From NCBI GenBank assembly GCA_013697915.1, contig JACCVY010000122.1, forward strand, positions 1 to 37,565: a stretch of 37,565 nucleotides of DNA. Reading direction: 5' to 3'. Both the position numbers and the translations under genes were made by a program. The DNA is from Blastocatellia bacterium (GTDB lineage Bacteria; Acidobacteriota; Blastocatellia; Pyrinomonadales; Pyrinomonadaceae). Below are positions 5,585-34,735 of the stretch, piece after piece. The first letter of the stretch is position 1, and each line of letters starts with the position of its first letter. Below the pieces are notes generated by a model that was not told the DNA's origin, searched no databases, and was given only the letters and a program-made list of their open reading frames with translations.

Positions 5585-5676
5585 AGTTTCGGGTTTCGAG
5601 TTTCAATTTTAAGTTTCAAGTTCCGAGTTCCTGGTCCTTTTGACTCGGAACTCGGAACTTGAAACTCGAAACTTTT
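5585..5676. repeat. Heptamer inverted array (AAACTTG/GAACTCG-type) forming a 20-bp perfect stem
   Basis: The left arm at 5585-5631 and the right arm at 5642-5676 are built of 7-bp units (AGTTTCA, AGTTCCG; complement GAACTCG, GAACTTG). A perfect 20-bp stem pairs 5612-5631 with 5647-5666 over a 15-nt loop. It fills the gap between the stop of the anti-sigma-like gene (5682) and the start of the small membrane protein (5576). There is no U-run, so it is not a classical terminator, though it could stabilise or attenuate the transcript. Confidence 0.85.
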
Positions 5677-5681
5677 AGAAC

Positions 5682-8354
5682 CTACTTGTGTTTCAGGCCC
5701 TGCTGAAGTACGTGCTGAATCTCCAGCGAGTTTGGTATTCCGAAAAGAGTCGCCGGACTCAATCCAAATGGTCCGCCTTCAGTGTTGGCCGCGAACGTTA
5801 TGCTGTCGCCTTGTGCATAAGCGTACGCGAGTGTCGGCGCCAGGTTGGCAGCCATCGTCTTAATTGCCTGTTGCTGTTCCTGCGGCATCGCCCGCGAGTT
5901 TGCAACTCGCTCAGCGAACGGCTGCACCAGCGGCGCCAGCTTCTGATAAAAGACTGCCGAGAAATTCGCGTTACCGTCTGTCGGTAGTCCGGCAGTAAAA
6001 CGCGCCGACCGCAACAAGCTGTTACCCGATTCCTGTGAACGAACAGACCGCTCAACCATGGCGCGGCTGGGGCCCATCACCACATAACCATTGATGTAGG
6101 TGTAGTTCACCTCAACACCAAAGTCAGCGGAGCGCAGCGTGTAGTAGGGGCGCCCGCTAATTTCAGCGCGGTCCCACACCAGTCCAGCTTTGCCGAATTT
6201 GGCTGCTTCCTTGTTAACCTCCCCGACCAGTCGCTCCAGCGTCTCTTGCAAGTGCGCCGAATCGTTGACTTCGAACACCATCTTCCACGAGGGTGTCGGC
6301 AGAATTGGACCATCAATCGCGAAAGCAAACTCGCCACCGAGCGGCGCGGCGATGTCTTTGCGGATGTCCAGACCGTGATCTGCCTGCTGCTGGTCCAGGT
6401 TCTTTTTCAGATCAGGCGAAACTGTTTCCATTACGCCGAGCAGATCGTCAACGAGTTTCACCGGATCCTTAACGACAAAACCAGCAACTACATTCGCATC
6501 GGGCGAAATGTATTCCAGCGAGCCCATCGGTCCGGGCGCTGCGAGCCACGAAGGAATGCCGTGCTGTGCATCGCTGAAAGACAGCGAAGCCCTGGTGTGG
6601 GTCTTACCGTCGCTCTGGTTCTGATCCAAAACCAGGTACTTGACGCTCAACACACCCAGTTTGTTCAGCGCTTCTTCATGTCGAACTCCATTGGGTTCTT
6701 TGCTGCGCTGAGACGTGGTTTGCGCGATGATTCTTTCAAGATTAGCTGCGACTACCAAACCTGCGCCCTGTTGGTAAACCTCAGCAATGCGATTATGAAA
6801 AGGGCTGGAGGTGAAACCGTTTGTGCCGCCCCGGGCGAGGGACTGCAGTTGCTGCAAGTCGGGACTAGCAGCAAACAAATCATTCTGAATCCATACAAAG
6901 AGCTGCTTTCCCTTTTCTCCTGAAGCAGTCGCTGTCAGCGGGTCATCGACGAACCGGATTTCAGGCTGGCCGGATGACTTCGCGTACTTCGCCACCTGCT
7001 GTTCGAGAAATGCGCGGAAGCCGTTGGAGTTTTTCAGCTCCGCGAGCACCACCGGCGCCACTGGTTCCTGTTTTTCATTAAGCGAAACCGACACCGCGAT
7101 CTCTTCGCCAAGGTAATCGCCGAATTCGCGAATCGAATTGATGACCTGATCCACGTTTGGACCCTTATGGCCGGACTGTTCTTTGTCCCACCATTCTTTC
7201 AAGGCCGCATTCTGGTTGATGCGTTCCTGCATGATGCGGTGCGATTCGACAATCGTCGACGTCAGGTTTGGCAGCGCTGCATAAACGATTGTGTTTTCCG
7301 GCATCATGTCGAGCAAACGCGTTGAATTGCGCACGCCCGGCTGTGGCACTCTGCTCAATTCCCTGTTGAGCGCCGTTAGGCTGGCCAGAGTTGCGGCATA
7401 GTTTGCAGCCTTGCGGCTCCAGGCCAGTTCGTCTTTGACTGGAATCTTGTCGATAGATGCGTTCGTCGTTGCCTGCTCGCCGCTGTGCAGAACTATGTCG
7501 TGGTTAGCGTGGTCCAAATGCACTTCGCCTTCGACTACAGAAACGCGCGAGCCTTTCGTGCCGTTGTTGACGGAAAAGATTGTTCCGGTAACAGAAACCA
7601 ACGAATCGCCAGTAGCGACGAACAAATGCTGGTTCTTCTGCTTTGCAGCTTCGACGATAATCGCGCCGCGGTTCAAGTGAATGGTTGTCCCCTGACCGTT
7701 CTTCGTTAGGAAGAACTCAGAGCGTTCGCGCATTTCGATTGTTGAACCATCACCAAGACGAATATTGGCGTGGGCGTCTTTTGCGGTGCGAATGCGATCA
7801 CCTTTTTGCAATTTCTCGCCTGCCGTTACCTGCGCACTGCGCGTGTCGGCAATTTGATAGACCTGGCCATCGGCCGCCTGCACAGTCGCTTCAAGCTCGC
7901 CGCCAAAAGGCGAGTAACGCTGAATCAAAGGCAGCGCCAACAAACCAACGCCGATGATCAGTGCAGCGGCAATGCCCCAACGCAAAACAACCGGCTGGAT
8001 GCTGTAACGCTTCGTGCCGGCGACTTTTTTCACCGGCAGCACATGAAACGCGCGCGCATCCTTCATTGCCTTGCGACAAGGAATGCATTCGTGCGTGTGG
8101 TCCACCAGCAACAGCGAACGAGCTTCAGACAAGTCGCCGGCCAAATAGGCCGGGATCAGCGATTGAAAATCACTGCAATTTTCAATGTGTTCCGAGGCGT
8201 GACTCGCGGTTGCGACCTGGCCGGTGTTTTCCGCGGCGATACGTGCCCAAACACGCTCAGCCGCTTGTTTGACGACCATTGAATCGAGCTCTTCGTTTCT
8301 CATTTCAGTGGTCGCCCGGTCGAGGATGTTCTCCAACTCTTGATTCGTTTTCAT
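5682..8354 (-). CDS. Anti-sigma-like zinc-finger / FecR-domain membrane protein with large DUF3352-like extracytoplasmic region
   Basis: 890 residues. Residues ~55-95 contain an anti-sigma zinc-binding pattern (H86-x3-C90-x2-C93, with C60 nearby). Residues 122-145 form one membrane helix (LRWGIAAALIIGVGLLALPL). Residues ~155-300 resemble a FecR domain (GDRIRTAKDAHANIRLGDGS, then ATGDSLVSVTGTIFSV). Residues ~340-870 resemble DUF3352-type proteins (PENTIVYAALPNL at the start); this last match is tentative. The gene starts 36 bp after the ECF sigma factor gene and has GGAG upstream of its ATG. The layout suggests that the cytoplasmic zinc domain holds the sigma factor while the outer part senses the envelope. 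The size is far above an ordinary anti-sigma factor (~200-300 residues). Confidence 0.78.
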   Translation of the reverse strand: MKTNQELENILDRATTEMRNEELDSMVVKQAAERVWARIAAENTGQVATASHASEHIENCSDFQSLIPAYLAGDLSEARSLLLVDHTHECIPCRKAMKDARAFHVLPVKKVAGTKRYSIQPVVLRWGIAAALIIGVGLLALPLIQRYSPFGGELEATVQAADGQVYQIADTRSAQVTAGEKLQKGDRIRTAKDAHANIRLGDGSTIEMRERSEFFLTKNGQGTTIHLNRGAIIVEAAKQKNQHLFVATGDSLVSVTGTIFSVNNGTKGSRVSVVEGEVHLDHANHDIVLHSGEQATTNASIDKIPVKDELAWSRKAANYAATLASLTALNRELSRVPQPGVRNSTRLLDMMPENTIVYAALPNLTSTIVESHRIMQERINQNAALKEWWDKEQSGHKGPNVDQVINSIREFGDYLGEEIAVSVSLNEKQEPVAPVVLAELKNSNGFRAFLEQQVAKYAKSSGQPEIRFVDDPLTATASGEKGKQLFVWIQNDLFAASPDLQQLQSLARGGTNGFTSSPFHNRIAEVYQQGAGLVVAANLERIIAQTTSQRSKEPNGVRHEEALNKLGVLSVKYLVLDQNQSDGKTHTRASLSFSDAQHGIPSWLAAPGPMGSLEYISPDANVVAGFVVKDPVKLVDDLLGVMETVSPDLKKNLDQQQADHGLDIRKDIAAPLGGEFAFAIDGPILPTPSWKMVFEVNDSAHLQETLERLVGEVNKEAAKFGKAGLVWDRAEISGRPYYTLRSADFGVEVNYTYINGYVVMGPSRAMVERSVRSQESGNSLLRSARFTAGLPTDGNANFSAVFYQKLAPLVQPFAERVANSRAMPQEQQQAIKTMAANLAPTLAYAYAQGDSITFAANTEGGPFGLSPATLFGIPNSLEIQHVLQQGLKHK

Positions 8355-30010: not shown

Positions 30011-30073
30011 ATGACTTTGAATGATCGTTTCTAACTGGTGGATTCAAGTTTGAAGCGCAACCTCGATTGCGTC

Positions 30074-30253
30074 TTCGCTCCGGAGGAGCGAGATGTTTAT
30101 AGACCAGCGGCAATTTTAAATAACTTCGCTCCGCAGGAGCGAGATCTACCGTTAATTTACTGGCGAATAGTCAGGAACACATTGCGCTCCTATGGAGCGC
30201 AGGATTTTTGATACCAATATCAGCTATAAACATCTCGCCCCTTCCGGGCGAAG
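30074..30253. repeat. Four-hairpin structured element, copy 1
   Basis: Hairpin 1 (30074-30102) reads CGCTCC-gga-GGAGCG followed by AGATGTTTATAG. Hairpin 2 is CGCTCC-gca-GGAGCG (~30126-30141). Hairpin 3 is GCGCTCC-tat-GGAGCGC (~30184-30200). Hairpin 4 (30223-30253) is CTATAAACAT followed by CTCGCCCC...GGGCGAAG. The 15-base ends GCGAGATGTTTATAG and CTATAAACATCTCGC are perfect complements, so the whole element can close as a multi-branched structure. The element fills the 303-bp gap (30011-30313) between the M20 and GNAT genes. No gene is visible there. Confidence 0.88.
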
Positions 30254-30313
30254 CAGTCCAGACATCTTGTCTCGCAACAATGAAACAATCTGCTGCGAAC
30301 CTTATGTTTTTGA

Positions 30314-31078
30314 CTAATCTAAGCCTTCCGCTGCGTACAGAAGATAGCGTGGCTGGTCCAGCGCGCGATCAAAACCTGCGCAAAGCAACCCGCCCGCAAA
30401 CGCGTTTTGAAACTCTGTTCGCACCCGCAATTGTTCCTCCCGGGCAGCGCGCGGATTTTGCGTGCACAGACCGTTCCAATCAGCAGGAATTTGAATCGTC
30501 CGCGCCGCGGGCACAGCAAATGATGCCGTCGCGCCTTGTGCCAACTTTATTACTCTGTTCGATTGCAGCCGCCATTCGGCAAACAGCCTATCGCTGTCGA
30601 TTCCCGGCGGCGGTGTACCCTCAGACAGCGGGCTCGTCGAGTAATCCGTGCCGTAGAAATTTGCCGCGTAACTGCGCACCGTCACCCCCAGCCGATTGAG
30701 ATTAAAGTGTGCATTGCGCGCTTGCATTGGATCCCAGGTCCACTTAATGAAATTTCGCCCTTCATTTATGGCGCGCTCTCGCTGGCTCCATTTCAACCGC
30801 GCGCCCACGCCTTTGTTCTGGTAGTCGCGCGCGACCGCCATCATGTGCGAATAACCGAAGATGGAATCGTCGTGCACCGCCGGCAGGTGATGAACAAACC
30901 CTACCAGGCGTTCAGCAACAAGAGCGCCCAACGTCCAACCACCCGCCTGGCGCGAAACAATTAAATGACGACGAGGCGAGATTTCCAGTTCGGGCAAACC
31001 GAAAACTTCTCGCTGCAAGCGGATACAACTATCGAATTCGTCGATGGTGGTGCATTCACGGATTTGAATGCCGTCCAT
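30314..31078 (-). CDS. GNAT-like acetyltransferase (COG3375-type)
   Basis: 254 residues from ATG 31078, which shares its A with the TGA stop of the kinase-like gene (TGATG), indicating translational coupling; a TTG one codon upstream is the alternative. Residues ~5-150 form a GNAT fold (ECTTIDEFDSCIRLQREVFG, then SHMMAVARDYQNKGVGARLKWSQRERAINEG, the acetyl-CoA loop being QNKGVGA). The segment IKWTWDPMQARNAHFNLNRLGVTVRSYAANFYG is typical of the 'predicted GNAT superfamily' proteins of COG3375. The C-terminal ~90 residues are an additional domain. The substrate is unknown. Coupling to a histidine-kinase-like protein suggests a shared signalling or modification role. Confidence 0.82.
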   Translation of the reverse strand: MDGIQIRECTTIDEFDSCIRLQREVFGLPELEISPRRHLIVSRQAGGWTLGALVAERLVGFVHHLPAVHDDSIFGYSHMMAVARDYQNKGVGARLKWSQRERAINEGRNFIKWTWDPMQARNAHFNLNRLGVTVRSYAANFYGTDYSTSPLSEGTPPPGIDSDRLFAEWRLQSNRVIKLAQGATASFAVPAARTIQIPADWNGLCTQNPRAAREEQLRVRTEFQNAFAGGLLCAGFDRALDQPRYLLYAAEGLD

Positions 31079-31899
31079 CAAGGCACCTTCACCGGACCAG
31101 CGGGTAATTGCAGTGAGGTCCGCAATCCGCCGGTCTCGCGGTTCTGCAAAGTCACGGCGCCTTTCATCATTTCGACCAGGCGACGACCCACGATGATTCC
31201 CAGCTCATTTAGATCGGTTTTTCCGGCGCGCGGCGCTTCCTCGGGGTCAAACACCAGAGACATATTTTTTATGGCGGCGCCTTCGTCTTCGATTTGCACT
31301 TGCAGCGTTGGTCCATCAAGTAATTTCGCGTAAGTCGTCACGTGCTGACCTGAGGTGCTGCGACTCACCGCCCAGGAGAGAAACGTAAAGAGTATCTGCC
31401 GCAACCGCCCTTGATCCGAAACGATTGTCGTTGCGTCAGGAGCAAGATGGTATTCGAGCGTCACATCATTCTTCTGTGCCAGGCGGCCAACGGCAGCACA
31501 GGTGTCGCGTAACGTGTCAGCCAGCGAGAATTCGTGAACGAACAACTCCGCCGGCCCCGATTCCAGGCGCGACAAATCTACCAATTGATTAAGACTGGCA
31601 AGCTGCTGCATTCCGGAGTTCTGAATCTTCTGACAAAAGCGTCGCTGCGTTTCAGTGAGCTTTTCCTGGTCCAGCAGAATTTCAGCAAAGCCGAGTATTG
31701 AAGTCAGCGGGGTGCGCAGTTCGTGTGACATTCGCGCGAGGAATAAGGAACGATAGTGGGAGATGTGGCGCAACTCGCGATTCGCCTCTTCAAGCGCGGC
31801 GGTTCGCTGTTGTAGTTGCTCAATCAATTGCGCCACGCGCTCGTCGTTAGACGGCTCGCTGCTGGTTTTATTTGTTTCCGTTACAGCCTTCTCAGACAT
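31078..31899 (-). CDS. Soluble histidine-kinase-like protein with degenerate ATPase domain
   Basis: 273 residues from ATG 31899. An N-terminal coiled coil (~18-45, VAQLIEQLQQRTAALEEANREL) leads into an intact HisKA motif MSHELRTPL with H59. The ATPase half is decayed. The N box that should read like LLxNAxKF is FLSWAVSRS (W176 for Asn). The G1 box DxGxG is DEGAA (205-209), and the G2 GxGxG loop is reduced to LNELG. No membrane helix or sensor domain is present. It probably cannot bind ATP normally and may serve as a phosphoacceptor, dimerisation partner or inhibitor. It is coupled to the GNAT gene downstream and divergent from the PATAN-DnaJ gene. Confidence 0.8.
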   Translation of the reverse strand: MSEKAVTETNKTSSEPSNDERVAQLIEQLQQRTAALEEANRELRHISHYRSLFLARMSHELRTPLTSILGFAEILLDQEKLTETQRRFCQKIQNSGMQQLASLNQLVDLSRLESGPAELFVHEFSLADTLRDTCAAVGRLAQKNDVTLEYHLAPDATTIVSDQGRLRQILFTFLSWAVSRSTSGQHVTTYAKLLDGPTLQVQIEDEGAAIKNMSLVFDPEEAPRAGKTDLNELGIIVGRRLVEMMKGAVTLQNRETGGLRTSLQLPAGPVKVP

Positions 31900-32093
31900 G
31901 ATAAGGATCGAGCGTAGCCTCGCAGCTCGGTTGCTCCGCGCAGTCGCGCAACTCAATTGTTTCGGTAAGTGCAATATAAGACTGCTCCAGACGAGTGTCA
32001 AAGGCTTGCTTCTTTTTTAACTAAATCGTGCGTTATCATGCTCGTGCCTGATGGTGCCAGGCATTTCTGAAAACGTCTGAGCGCCAGAAACGC

Positions 32094-33623
32094 ATGAAAG
32101 GAACACTTAGCGAGCAGCCTCTCGCCGAACTCATTCGCGAGATTTCTTCCCGGAATTTTTCCGGCACCTTGCGGCTGGAGCGTGACCGCGCCCAGGCGGC
32201 TGTCTATTTTGAAAACGGCCAGGTGATTTTTGCGGCCTCCAACCTTCGCTCACTTCGCCTTAAGGAATATCTGGAAAAACGCGCGCTCGTTTCAGAAAAA
32301 GAACTCACCCCGCTGAGCCGGGATCTTTCCGATTTAGATCTTGCTGCCGCCGTTTGCACTTCCGGCCTGACCACGCGCGAACAAGTCGATCAATTGCTGG
32401 CAGTAATGGTCGCCGATGTGTTGCGCGTAGTTTTGTTATGGACAAACGGAAGTTGGGACTATAACGAGCGAGCGCGGTTGGGCTATCCCATCGAGGTGCC
32501 GGTGGATATCAATAGTCTGCTGCGCGAAGCCGGACACAGACTGCCGCTCAAGTTTGTTTCCGCGCGCTTCCGCAATCCCAACGAAATGATCTCACGAGCT
32601 ATCGGCAGCGAAACGAGCGGAAACAACCTGCTGCCCAACGAAAGTTTTCTGCTGTCACGTCTGGATACACCAACAAAGTTGCAAGAACTGGTGGAACTCA
32701 GCGGACTGCGCGAGCTCGATGCTCATCGAATTATTTATGGGCTTGCGCTTAGCGGAATGGTCACGCGCGAGTACTGGCATCACGCTTTTCGCGCTGAGAA
32801 GGCGCCCACCGGCAAAGAGGCAGGAGAGGTTGCGCCGCCACGCGCAAAAACTCGCGAAGCTGAAGCGGCCGCTGAAGCCGAGAAAGAAATTGCGGAGCTG
32901 GAAACATTTCTCGCACGACTCGGCGACGCAGTTGACTACTACGAAGTTATTGGTTTATCCCCGGAAGCCGACGCCAATGAAATCAAACTGGCCTACTATG
33001 CTCTCGCTCGGCGCTATCACCCCGATCGATTTCATATACAATCCGGCACGCCGCAACATGCGCGTATCAGTTCTGCGTTCGCGCGAGTCACGCAAGCGTA
33101 TGAAACGTTAACTGATCCAGGTGCGCGCTCGGCCTACGATGCAGGCCTCGAGCGTTCGCGGCAATTCTCCGGATCTCGCAAGTCGAAAGCCGGCGGTGCT
33201 GTTGGTCCTACAGAGGGATTTGAATTTGCGGTGGGTTCGCCTGACGACGAGTTCCAGGAGGCCGGTCAATGTTTCCGGGAAGGCCTCCAGGCACTACAGG
33301 CTGGTCAGCTTCAGTTAGCAGTGAAGCAATTGGCAGCGGCGGCAAGGCTGTCCCCTCGAGATGCACGCTATCGCGCTCACTATGGGCGCGCCCTCGCCGC
33401 GGGTGAGCAGACACGCCGGCTGGCTGAAAGCGAACTCCAGGCGGCGGTGAAACTGGAGCCTGCCGCTACAATGTATCGCACCATGTTGGCGGAATTGTAT
33501 TTTGATTTGAACTTTCACCGGCGCGCGCAAACTGAGTTGAAACGAGCGCTGAGTATCGATCCAAACGATGCCAAAGCGCGCGCTCTGCTGCGCAAAATTG
33601 AGAAAGCCGGGAGAACAGGTTAA
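32094..33623 (+). CDS. PATAN (DUF4388) - DnaJ - TPR protein
   Basis: 509 residues. Residues 1-~160 form a PATAN/DUF4388 domain (MKGTLSEQPLAELIREISSRNFSGTLRLE, then VYFENGQVIFAAS). Residues ~160-250 are a helical linker with a winged-helix look (KLQELVELSGLRELDAHRIIYGLALSGMV). An Ala/Glu-rich coil (~260-285) precedes a J domain at ~288-355 with the HPD motif (RYHPDRF). The C-terminal ~130 residues are TPR repeats (FREGLQALQAGQLQLAVKQL, then RALSIDPNDAKARALLRK). PATAN domains occur in gliding, motility and two-component proteins of bacteria with complex behaviour. The DnaJ part would recruit DnaK. Cytoplasmic. It is divergent from the kinase-like gene and followed by an HD-GYP-like gene. Confidence 0.88.
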   Translation: MKGTLSEQPLAELIREISSRNFSGTLRLERDRAQAAVYFENGQVIFAASNLRSLRLKEYLEKRALVSEKELTPLSRDLSDLDLAAAVCTSGLTTREQVDQLLAVMVADVLRVVLLWTNGSWDYNERARLGYPIEVPVDINSLLREAGHRLPLKFVSARFRNPNEMISRAIGSETSGNNLLPNESFLLSRLDTPTKLQELVELSGLRELDAHRIIYGLALSGMVTREYWHHAFRAEKAPTGKEAGEVAPPRAKTREAEAAAEAEKEIAELETFLARLGDAVDYYEVIGLSPEADANEIKLAYYALARRYHPDRFHIQSGTPQHARISSAFARVTQAYETLTDPGARSAYDAGLERSRQFSGSRKSKAGGAVGPTEGFEFAVGSPDDEFQEAGQCFREGLQALQAGQLQLAVKQLAAAARLSPRDARYRAHYGRALAAGEQTRRLAESELQAAVKLEPAATMYRTMLAELYFDLNFHRRAQTELKRALSIDPNDAKARALLRKIEKAGRTG

Positions 33624-33632
33624 GAGCAGGTT

Positions 33633-33742
33633 TTTGGAGTGCGGCGGCTTGACTCTGCTTTTGGCCAGGCTCGCGAATCGTACAAGAAAAAAGCCAACTC
33701 TTTGGAGTCGTGAAAGGGGCGTCGAGCCGCCGCAGTCCAAAG
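33633..33742. repeat. Inverted repeat, 'TTTGGAGTGCGGCGGCT' family
   Basis: The left arm (33633-33653) begins TTTGGAGTGCGGCGGCTTGA. The right arm (33721-33742) ends GCCGCCGCAGTCCAAAG. They pair over ~21 bp with two mismatches. The interior (~67 bp) includes a second TTTGGAGTCG at 33701. It lies 10 bp after the stop of the PATAN-DnaJ gene and before the HD gene (33765). Related to 2088-2211. Confidence 0.82.
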
Positions 33743-33764
33743 CGTTAACGAAAGACTAATCATC

Positions 33765-34433
33765 ATGGTGACAGCTCCGGTTGAAACTGAACACGAACGC
33801 CTGGCGCGCGAGGCTTACCTGCAACTTGCATCAGCCGCCGATCGCTTTGAGCGTTACGAAAATCCGCATGCAGTGCGCATCGCTGCACTTGCCGACGCGA
33901 TTGCTCAAGCCTTTCATCTGGCGTCGCAGGATCGTCTGTCGCTGCGTAGCGCGGCCCACATGCACGACCTTGGCGAAGTGGCGATGGAGCGTGAATACAT
34001 TCGCCGCGAAGGCTCGCTGAGCGAAGAAGAGCGGTTGGATTTGGCTCGTCATCCGGTGATTGGCGAACAGGAAGCCGCTCGTGCCAGCGCCGACCGCGCT
34101 GTGCAATTGCTCGTCCGCTGGCATCATGAGTGGTGGAATGGCTGCGGTTATCCCGATGCGTTGAGACAGAATGAAATCCCGCTTGCCGCGCGCATATTGC
34201 GCGTCGCCGATTCTTACGCCGCGCTTACCGACGCGCGCCCCTATCGACCTGCGCTTAGCGAAGCCGAAGCGCGCCGGCAAATCATCGAGCGCGCCGCAAT
34301 TGAATTTGATCCGAGTATCGTAAGAGTCTTTCTTTCACTTCCCGACATGGAAGAACTGCGCTCGTTTGCGCGGCCGGCGAAACCGGCAGTGATAGTTGAC
34401 GAGGGCCCGGGGTTGTTTTCATCGTTTACATAA
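33765..34433 (+). CDS. HD-GYP-like domain protein
   Basis: 222 residues. The metal-binding pattern of HD-GYP phosphodiesterases can be followed: H35, H67-D68 (HMHDLGE), H96 (HPVIGE), H120-H121 (HHEWWNGCGYP, the GYP motif) and D149 (VADSYAALT). Differences from consensus: Lys after HDIG is Glu, the Asp of HHExxDG is Asn, and the FDA triplet is YAA. The main metal ligands are therefore present, while some c-di-GMP-contact positions changed. It could hydrolyse c-di-GMP or a related dinucleotide, or act on another phosphoester. No receiver or sensor domain is attached. No clear ribosome site precedes ATG 33765. It lies in the same transcriptional direction as the PATAN gene. Confidence 0.82.
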   Translation: MVTAPVETEHERLAREAYLQLASAADRFERYENPHAVRIAALADAIAQAFHLASQDRLSLRSAAHMHDLGEVAMEREYIRREGSLSEEERLDLARHPVIGEQEAARASADRAVQLLVRWHHEWWNGCGYPDALRQNEIPLAARILRVADSYAALTDARPYRPALSEAEARRQIIERAAIEFDPSIVRVFLSLPDMEELRSFARPAKPAVIVDEGPGLFSSFT

Positions 34434-34503
34434 CACCTCGAACTGTGGATCTTAAGAAATTAATGGTGAATCCCGAGTTACAAACGAAATAGTGGACTTC
34501 GTT

Positions 34504-34686
34504 TTCGCTCCAGCGGAGCGAGATGTTTATAGCAGCGAGCCCACCCCCAAAGATTTTCGCTCCGCGAGGAGCGACACGCGGCAACGGAACGACTACCCAG
34601 GTACGAAAAGGCGATTGCGCTCCTACGGAGCTAAGGGGAAAGAAATGACTGCCATGCTATAAACATCTCGCCCCTCTGGGGCGAAG
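34504..34686. repeat. Four-hairpin structured element, copy 2
   Basis: Hairpin 1 (34504-34532) is CGCTCC-agc-GGAGCG followed by AGATGTTTATAG. Hairpin 2 (~34557-34573) is CGCTCC-gcga-GGAGCG. Hairpin 3 (~34616-34631) is GCGCTCC-tac-GGAGC. Hairpin 4 (34656-34686) is CTATAAACAT followed by CTCGCCCC-tct-GGGGCGAAG. Length, order and spacing match copy 1 at 30074-30253 within a few bases, while the linkers between hairpins share little. It fills the 302-bp gap 34434-34735, which has no gene. Confidence 0.88.
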
Positions 34687-34735
34687 GACAAAACATGTTT
34701 CTGTACCACTTCCAACTTGAATTTACGAATACAAA

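Follow-up and report, generated by a model that had tools for sequence, protein, structure and literature searches.

Two Four-Hairpin Repeats in the Window

The window analyzed here comprises positions 1 to 37,565 of contig JACCVY010000122.1 from Blastocatellia bacterium (Acidobacteriota, Pyrinomonadaceae). It contains two copies of a structured repeat, at positions 30074-30253 (copy 1) and 34504-34686 (copy 2), each of which consists of four hairpins (hp1 to hp4) in the same order and with similar spacing. An earlier note, made from the sequence of the window, had described these copies and their placement in gaps of about 300 bp, and the presence of both copies and their placement were confirmed (gaps 30011-30313 and 34434-34735).

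All parts of copy 1 are on the forward strand. Its hp1 (TCGCTCC-GGA-GGAGCGA, 30075-30091) is followed by the tag ATGTTTATAG (30093-30102), which pairs with positions 30224-30233, and by hp2 (TCGCTCC-GCA-GGAGCGA, 30126-30142). The second half is composed of hp3 (TGCGCTCC-TAT-GGAGCGCA, 30183-30201), the tag CTATAAACAT (30224-30233), and hp4 (TCGCCC-CTTCC-GGGCGA, 30235-30251). Copy 2 has the same arrangement on the same strand, i.e., hp1 (TCGCTCC-AGC-GGAGCGA, 34505-34521), ATGTTTATAG (34523-34532, pairing with 34657-34666), hp2 (TCGCTCC-GCGA-GGAGCGA, 34557-34574), hp3 (GCTCC-TAC-GGAGC, 34619-34631), CTATAAACAT (34657-34666), and hp4 (TCGCCCC-TCT-GGGGCGA, 34668-34684). In both copies GCGAGATGTTTATAG, on the inner side of hp1, and CTATAAACATCTCGC, on the inner side of hp4, pair perfectly over 15 bp, as had been noted before. 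The first four bases of this pairing also belong to the stems of hp1 and hp4, and, thus, the local and the terminal folds compete. Folding as single-stranded DNA was far stronger for both copies than for shuffled sequences (z -8.3 and -6.6). The sequence GATGTTTATAG had 15+15 occurrences in the genome, compared to 0+0 for the reversed control, showing that its recurrence is not due to chance.

Both copies are accompanied by outer inverted repeats to a different extent. The full extent of copy 2 is 34465-34727 (263 bp), so that the size of about 180 bp given in the earlier note was incomplete. It is bordered by a degenerate left outer repeat of the IS30 type (GGTGAATCCCGAGTTACAAACGAAAT, 34465-34490, forward strand, register set by hand on GGTG) and by a right one on the reverse strand (34702-34727, 22 of 26 positions), and a 3-bp AAT duplication is present on either side (34462-34464 and 34728-34730). 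Copy 1 has retained only the left outer repeat (GGTGGATTCAAGTTTGAAGCGCAACC, 30037-30062, forward strand, 24 of 26 positions fit); its right side, with 14 positions, equals the background and contains no recognizable partner.

The stems of hp1 and hp2 are identical between the two copies. The same is true for hp4, the stem of which is just one pair shorter in copy 1, and, therefore, the compensatory change that had been proposed for this hairpin was not confirmed. The linkers of the two copies indeed appear to be unrelated, which is due to copy 1 belonging to a divergent subtype; among most copies in the genome the linkers can be aligned.

Copies and Distribution of the Repeat Family

A covariance model was built from 12 copies of the window's own genome and was then run on genomes. 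After merging of matches on both strands, 29 loci were found in the own genome, which has a size of 4.5 Mb. The ligA neighbors of the window are closest to Pyrinomonadaceae (Acidobacteriota). Matches were present in 31 of the 60 sampled Pyrinomonadaceae genomes, several of which had at least about 43 scored places (both strands counted). Among 247 sampled genomes of the phylum there were two matches outside of the family, a weak one in genome G185 and a strong one in G131, a member of another class. The site orthologous to copy 2 is occupied in the isolate BP_18, the DNA of which is about 84% identical, and copy 2 is missing from two more distant relatives that share the gene order. Most copies lie outside of open reading frames (22 of 24 examined).

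Rfam searches at gathering and relaxed thresholds gave one tRNA and otherwise chance matches, and no family for the element. One exact sequence match was found in viral contigs, but the covariance model detected no element there. In the part of the literature that was searched, no published description of these repeats was found.

Two side observations were made. An Acido-Lenti-1 RNA (RF01687) is encoded in the own genome (L330:2689-2737, reverse strand) with a score above the gathering threshold. In addition, a subfamily in G030 and G034 (L230, L232, L233, L235, L251, L252, L256) has inner hairpins of greater length, CTCCGTTCGGAGGAGCGGA and its mirror, and the common sequence of this subfamily reaches beyond hp1 and hp4.

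Conservation and Covariation of the Stems

Across genera the linkers have no obvious similarity, while the order hp1-ATGTTTATAG-hp2-hp3-CTATAAACAT-hp4 is retained. The same hairpin order was observed in 110 copies, with a core length of 104-161 bp and a single core of 190 bp. These copies were used for counting of stem pairs, and the mixed-strand alignment A2 was excluded from the counts. The arms of hp1 paired with their own partners at 5.77 of 6 positions, in comparison to a maximum of 5.27 when arms were dealt from other copies, and the respective values for hp4 were 5.56 and 4.98. GC, CG, TA and AT pairs were all seen at equivalent stem positions. The set includes related copies, and the pairing changes are thus not independent events. 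One clear two-sided change was found in hp4 at the site of copy 2, which has CCCC/GGGG in the window and CTCC/GGAG in BP_18 (stem TCGCTCC/GGAGCGA). With the 12 copies of the own genome alone the covariation was weak, i.e., 43 of 500 shuffles were equally high, because these copies are closely related and had been selected by the exact tag; the question was settled with the wider set of copies. The earlier proposal that structure is conserved rather than sequence therefore holds across genera, and it is not shown by the two window copies, the stems of which are conserved in sequence.

Pairing of hp1 with itself was clearly better than pairing across to hp4 (5.77 versus 4.69), showing that it is the local hairpin and not the long terminal pairing that is kept there. 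The two values were close to each other for hp4 (5.56 versus 5.35). The motif ATGTT strictly followed the inner hairpins in only 18 and 14 of the 110 copies (shuffled cores: 1), and, thus, a description as four equal repetitive extragenic palindrome (REP) units is valid for a part of the family only.

A Y1 Transposase Gene Is Located between the Hairpins in Relatives

The tag was not nearby at any of the eight Y1 loci examined in the own genome, which at first spoke against a link to Y1 transposases, until relatives were searched. In G034 a Y1 transposase gene was found to be directly surrounded by these hairpins. The clade of this enzyme has 66-100% identity in eight genomes and 49% in two more, after which the identity drops to about 42%. 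Units of a hairpin and ATGTT adjoin the gene at all eight loci examined from the group with 66-100% identity, but are near the gene at none of 22 other Y1 loci, one of which has two units at a distance of about 1 kb or more. At three loci (L295, L296, L299), read in gene orientation, the arrangement is hp1-tag-hp2-gene-hp3-tag-hp4, and the hairpins are tight against the coding region. Some enzyme genes have arrays and hp3-hp4 pairs beside them (G034:C273). In BP_18, which belongs to the genus of the window, about 75 nt of the left end at the gene match those of the window elements. Its hp1 and tag are identical to the family consensus at 29 of 29 positions (z 24); the right end has a z of 8.

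All ten enzyme-bearing genomes among the 60 also contain elements. Most genomes have one enzyme gene, and two are present in G053 and G201. Three genomes that had been found via their elements, G131, G201 and G209, were searched as a test, and the enzyme was found with 64%, 58% and 57% identity, respectively. In G185, with its single weak element match, the enzyme was searched for and was absent. The relatives with 49% identity have the tag ATGTCTGTAG, and the genes in G131, G201 and G209 are surrounded by variants, namely CTGTTTATAG-like, ATGTTTGTAG and CTGTTTGTAG. The tag differs along with the enzyme.

The enzyme scored 93.7 bits with Pfam Y1_Tnp and passed the NCBIfam IS200/IS605 model (69 versus a cut-off of 55). 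It failed the NCBIfam model for REP-associated transposases, REP_Tyr_transpos (30-34 bits versus a cut-off of 80), and is thus not a REP-associated tyrosine transposase (RAYT) by sequence. The alignment contains the motifs DHxH, WQE and YIxNQxxHH, which include the DH[IV]H and Y---Q motifs of Y1 HUH transposases, the length is about 150 aa, and the copy number is low. Table 1 of PMC6006769 lists such features for TnpA-Y1 subclass 1.2, and by motifs, size and copy number the enzymes match this subclass. According to the description of this subclass, its enzymes have a low copy number, generally lack terminal structures, do not share the insertion sequence properties of subclass 1.1, and occur mostly in Cyanobacteria and Bacteroidetes (PMC6006769).

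The family contains many more Y1 genes with this motif, and these were also inspected. Mirrored rows of two to three hairpins were present on both sides at 23 of 50 loci, in comparison to 0 of 50 for shuffled flanks; near relatives and repeated entries of a single locus are among these 50, and a few of the flanks have boundaries that are approximate. This suggests that mirrored multi-hairpin ends are a general architecture. Several Y1 genes of other clades (L303, L304, L307, L312, L279, L284 and others) have ends of the form A-B-C-gene-C'-B'-A', with sequences particular to each.

An Outer Layer of IS30-Type Inverted Repeats

Inverted repeats of the IS30 type, similar to GGTGAATTCAACTTACAAGTGCAACA, enclose many copies in the genus of the window and some copies in G029, G053 and G059. 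The own genome contains an intact IS30-family element with the same ends (L047; C136), which has an AAG duplication and scored 300 bits with the NCBIfam IS30 model. Exact 3-bp duplications were found at 13 of 27 IS30-type flank pairs, in comparison to 2.4 expected; a few of the boundaries were placed by hand on the GGTG start. Copy 2, with its AAT duplications, is a double-layered element. A different, non-IS30 outer inverted repeat, CTAGTGTCCTGTCTCTAAAGTTCT, was found at L174, L206, L225, L246 and L248. In view of these two kinds of outer repeats, enclosure of the hairpin unit seems to have happened more than once.

Further features were seen at single loci. Two IS30-type copies (L164, L195) have flanks that are inverted instead of direct, GTCATT...AATGAC and GTCAGT...ACTGAC, as if the center of a palindrome had been hit. 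The own genome contains a second IS30-family frame, which is truncated to 120 aa (L048, C199), in addition to the intact one at C136. Also in the own genome, a group II intron (RF02005, RF00029) lies in a hairpin loop of an IS30-type copy (L330, C142, about 5590-7530). It contains a reverse transcriptase ORF (5706-7019, reverse strand), and a further copy (L031, C156) has the same intron end in the corresponding hairpin.

Proposed Origin of the Element and Competing Explanations

With a probability of about 80%, the four-hairpin unit is a non-autonomous derivative of an IS200-like Y1 single-strand transposon, comparable to the REPINs and to the palindrome-associated transposable elements (PATEs), with two hairpins per end, and some copies of it are enclosed by IS30-type ends. 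The left end would be hp1-ATGTTTATAG-hp2 and the right end hp3-CTATAAACAT-hp4, and the transposase gene would lie between them, as is seen in relatives. The window element lacks the gene, and its two ends are close to each other. The transposase would bind the hairpins and the tag in single-stranded DNA, and would cut and join, copying or moving the unit in the manner that is assumed for RAYTs and REPINs; this part, including current mobility, is a proposal based on what is known of other Y1 enzymes (PMC3116915, PMC2817692). Recognition by the enzyme would keep the stems paired while the linkers drift. Enclosed within IS30-type repeats, the unit would form a miniature inverted-repeat transposable element (MITE) of 245-270 bp, which could in addition be spread by a DDE transposase of the IS30 family, with 3-bp duplications as a trace. 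The IS30-type layer is thus a possible second means of movement for the double-layered copies.

Several results weigh against this origin. Genes of the clade are absent from the own genome (best identity 37%, assembly 97% complete), and the same is true for G029, G030 and G002 with their many copies. The copies of the own genome would therefore be either relics or now dependent on the IS30 layer. At some enzyme loci an entire four-hairpin unit, rather than hp3-hp4 alone, lies downstream of the gene. The search for an empty site of a bare unit by joining of flanks yielded only the G034/G009 enzyme locus, which was not clean, and about half of the IS30-type copies have no exact duplication.

A plain IS30-family MITE, in which the outer repeats explain everything and the hairpins are an incidental interior, is unlikely. 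The outer repeats and the 3-bp duplications are real and match the IS30-family element of the own genome, but the core also exists without IS30 repeats in many genomes as well as within the different outer repeat, its stems covary, and it flanks a Y1 gene. Even less probable is a free assembly of single REP units (hairpin plus ATGTT) by chance or in a modular way, as in bacterial interspersed mosaic elements (BIMEs). The arrays and hp3-hp4 pairs beside some enzyme genes would fit such an origin; the single hairpin order and the core lengths in 110 copies and the matching order around the gene do not, and other Y1 genes of the family have mirrored ends as well.

The earlier note had left the choice between a functional fold, i.e., RNA or cruciform DNA, and a non-autonomous mobile element with structured ends. 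Retention for the fold, as a structured host RNA or a cis-regulatory element (riboswitch, small RNA, bidirectional terminator), could account for the strong predicted folding and the covariation, for the location mostly outside of open frames, and for some hairpins that resemble terminators. Yet, there are tens of copies per genome in both orientations, the sets differ between relatives, and copies are missing from orthologous gaps. Furthermore, both strands are nearly symmetrical, there is no Rfam match, and the hairpins are linked to a transposase gene. Nothing indicates a role as host RNA, and this explanation is very improbable. The mobile element is supported, by the hairpins that flank a Y1 transposase gene in relatives and by the many copies within IS30-type repeats with target duplications.

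The preferred derivation from a Y1 transposon may have a wider meaning. There might be a whole class of single-strand transposons that is characterized by subclass 1.2 enzymes and by mirrored multi-hairpin ends (A-B-tnpA-B'-A'), every member having a tag and a set of gene-less derivatives of its own, some of which were captured by DDE transposons as double-layered MITEs; the chances for and against this generalization are about balanced. The results also suggest that two unrelated kinds of transposases can in turn carry one miniature element. A group of HUH transposases that was described without a DNA substrate would have a likely one, and a large repeat family of the Acidobacteriota would be explained. 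The natural series of enzyme-tag pairs should be useful for testing the way in which hairpins and guide sequences are recognized by Y1 enzymes.

Comparison with Known Systems

RAYTs are thought to move REPINs (PMC3116915, PMC2817692), and this system has much in common with the element described here. In both cases intergenic repeats consist of inverted hairpins with compensatory changes, inverted repeats flank a low-copy Y1 transposase gene, and repeats persist in genomes without the gene. The repeats are present in many extragenic copies (29 loci in the own genome), and genomes with the enzyme have one or two genes for it. In contrast to REPINs, which have one hairpin per end, two are present here, the tag is ATGTTTATAG / CTATAAACAT and not GTAG/GTGG (GT[AG]G 5' of the hairpin), and the enzyme fails the NCBIfam model for REP-associated transposases and passes the one for IS200/IS605. 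PATEs and other miniature elements derived from IS200/IS605 are also gene-less, and what they have retained of a Y1 transposon is its palindromic ends alone. They were described without terminal inverted repeats (PMC3119063), whereas the ends found here mirror each other and have two hairpins each.

The double-layered copies resemble IS30-family MITEs in their inverted repeats, which correspond to those of an IS30-family element in the own genome, and in their 3-bp duplications. They differ in that their interior is a second unit of a mobile type, which also exists without IS30 ends. The enzyme resembles TnpA-Y1 subclass 1.2 in its DHxH, WQ and YIxNQxxHH motifs, its length and its low copy number, and differs from the described members in that it is found in Acidobacteriota and between mirrored hairpins. 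Taken together, REPINs, PATEs and IS30 MITEs were already known, and the new features are the tag, the ends with two hairpins, the link to an enzyme of the subclass 1.2 type, and the double-layered MITE.

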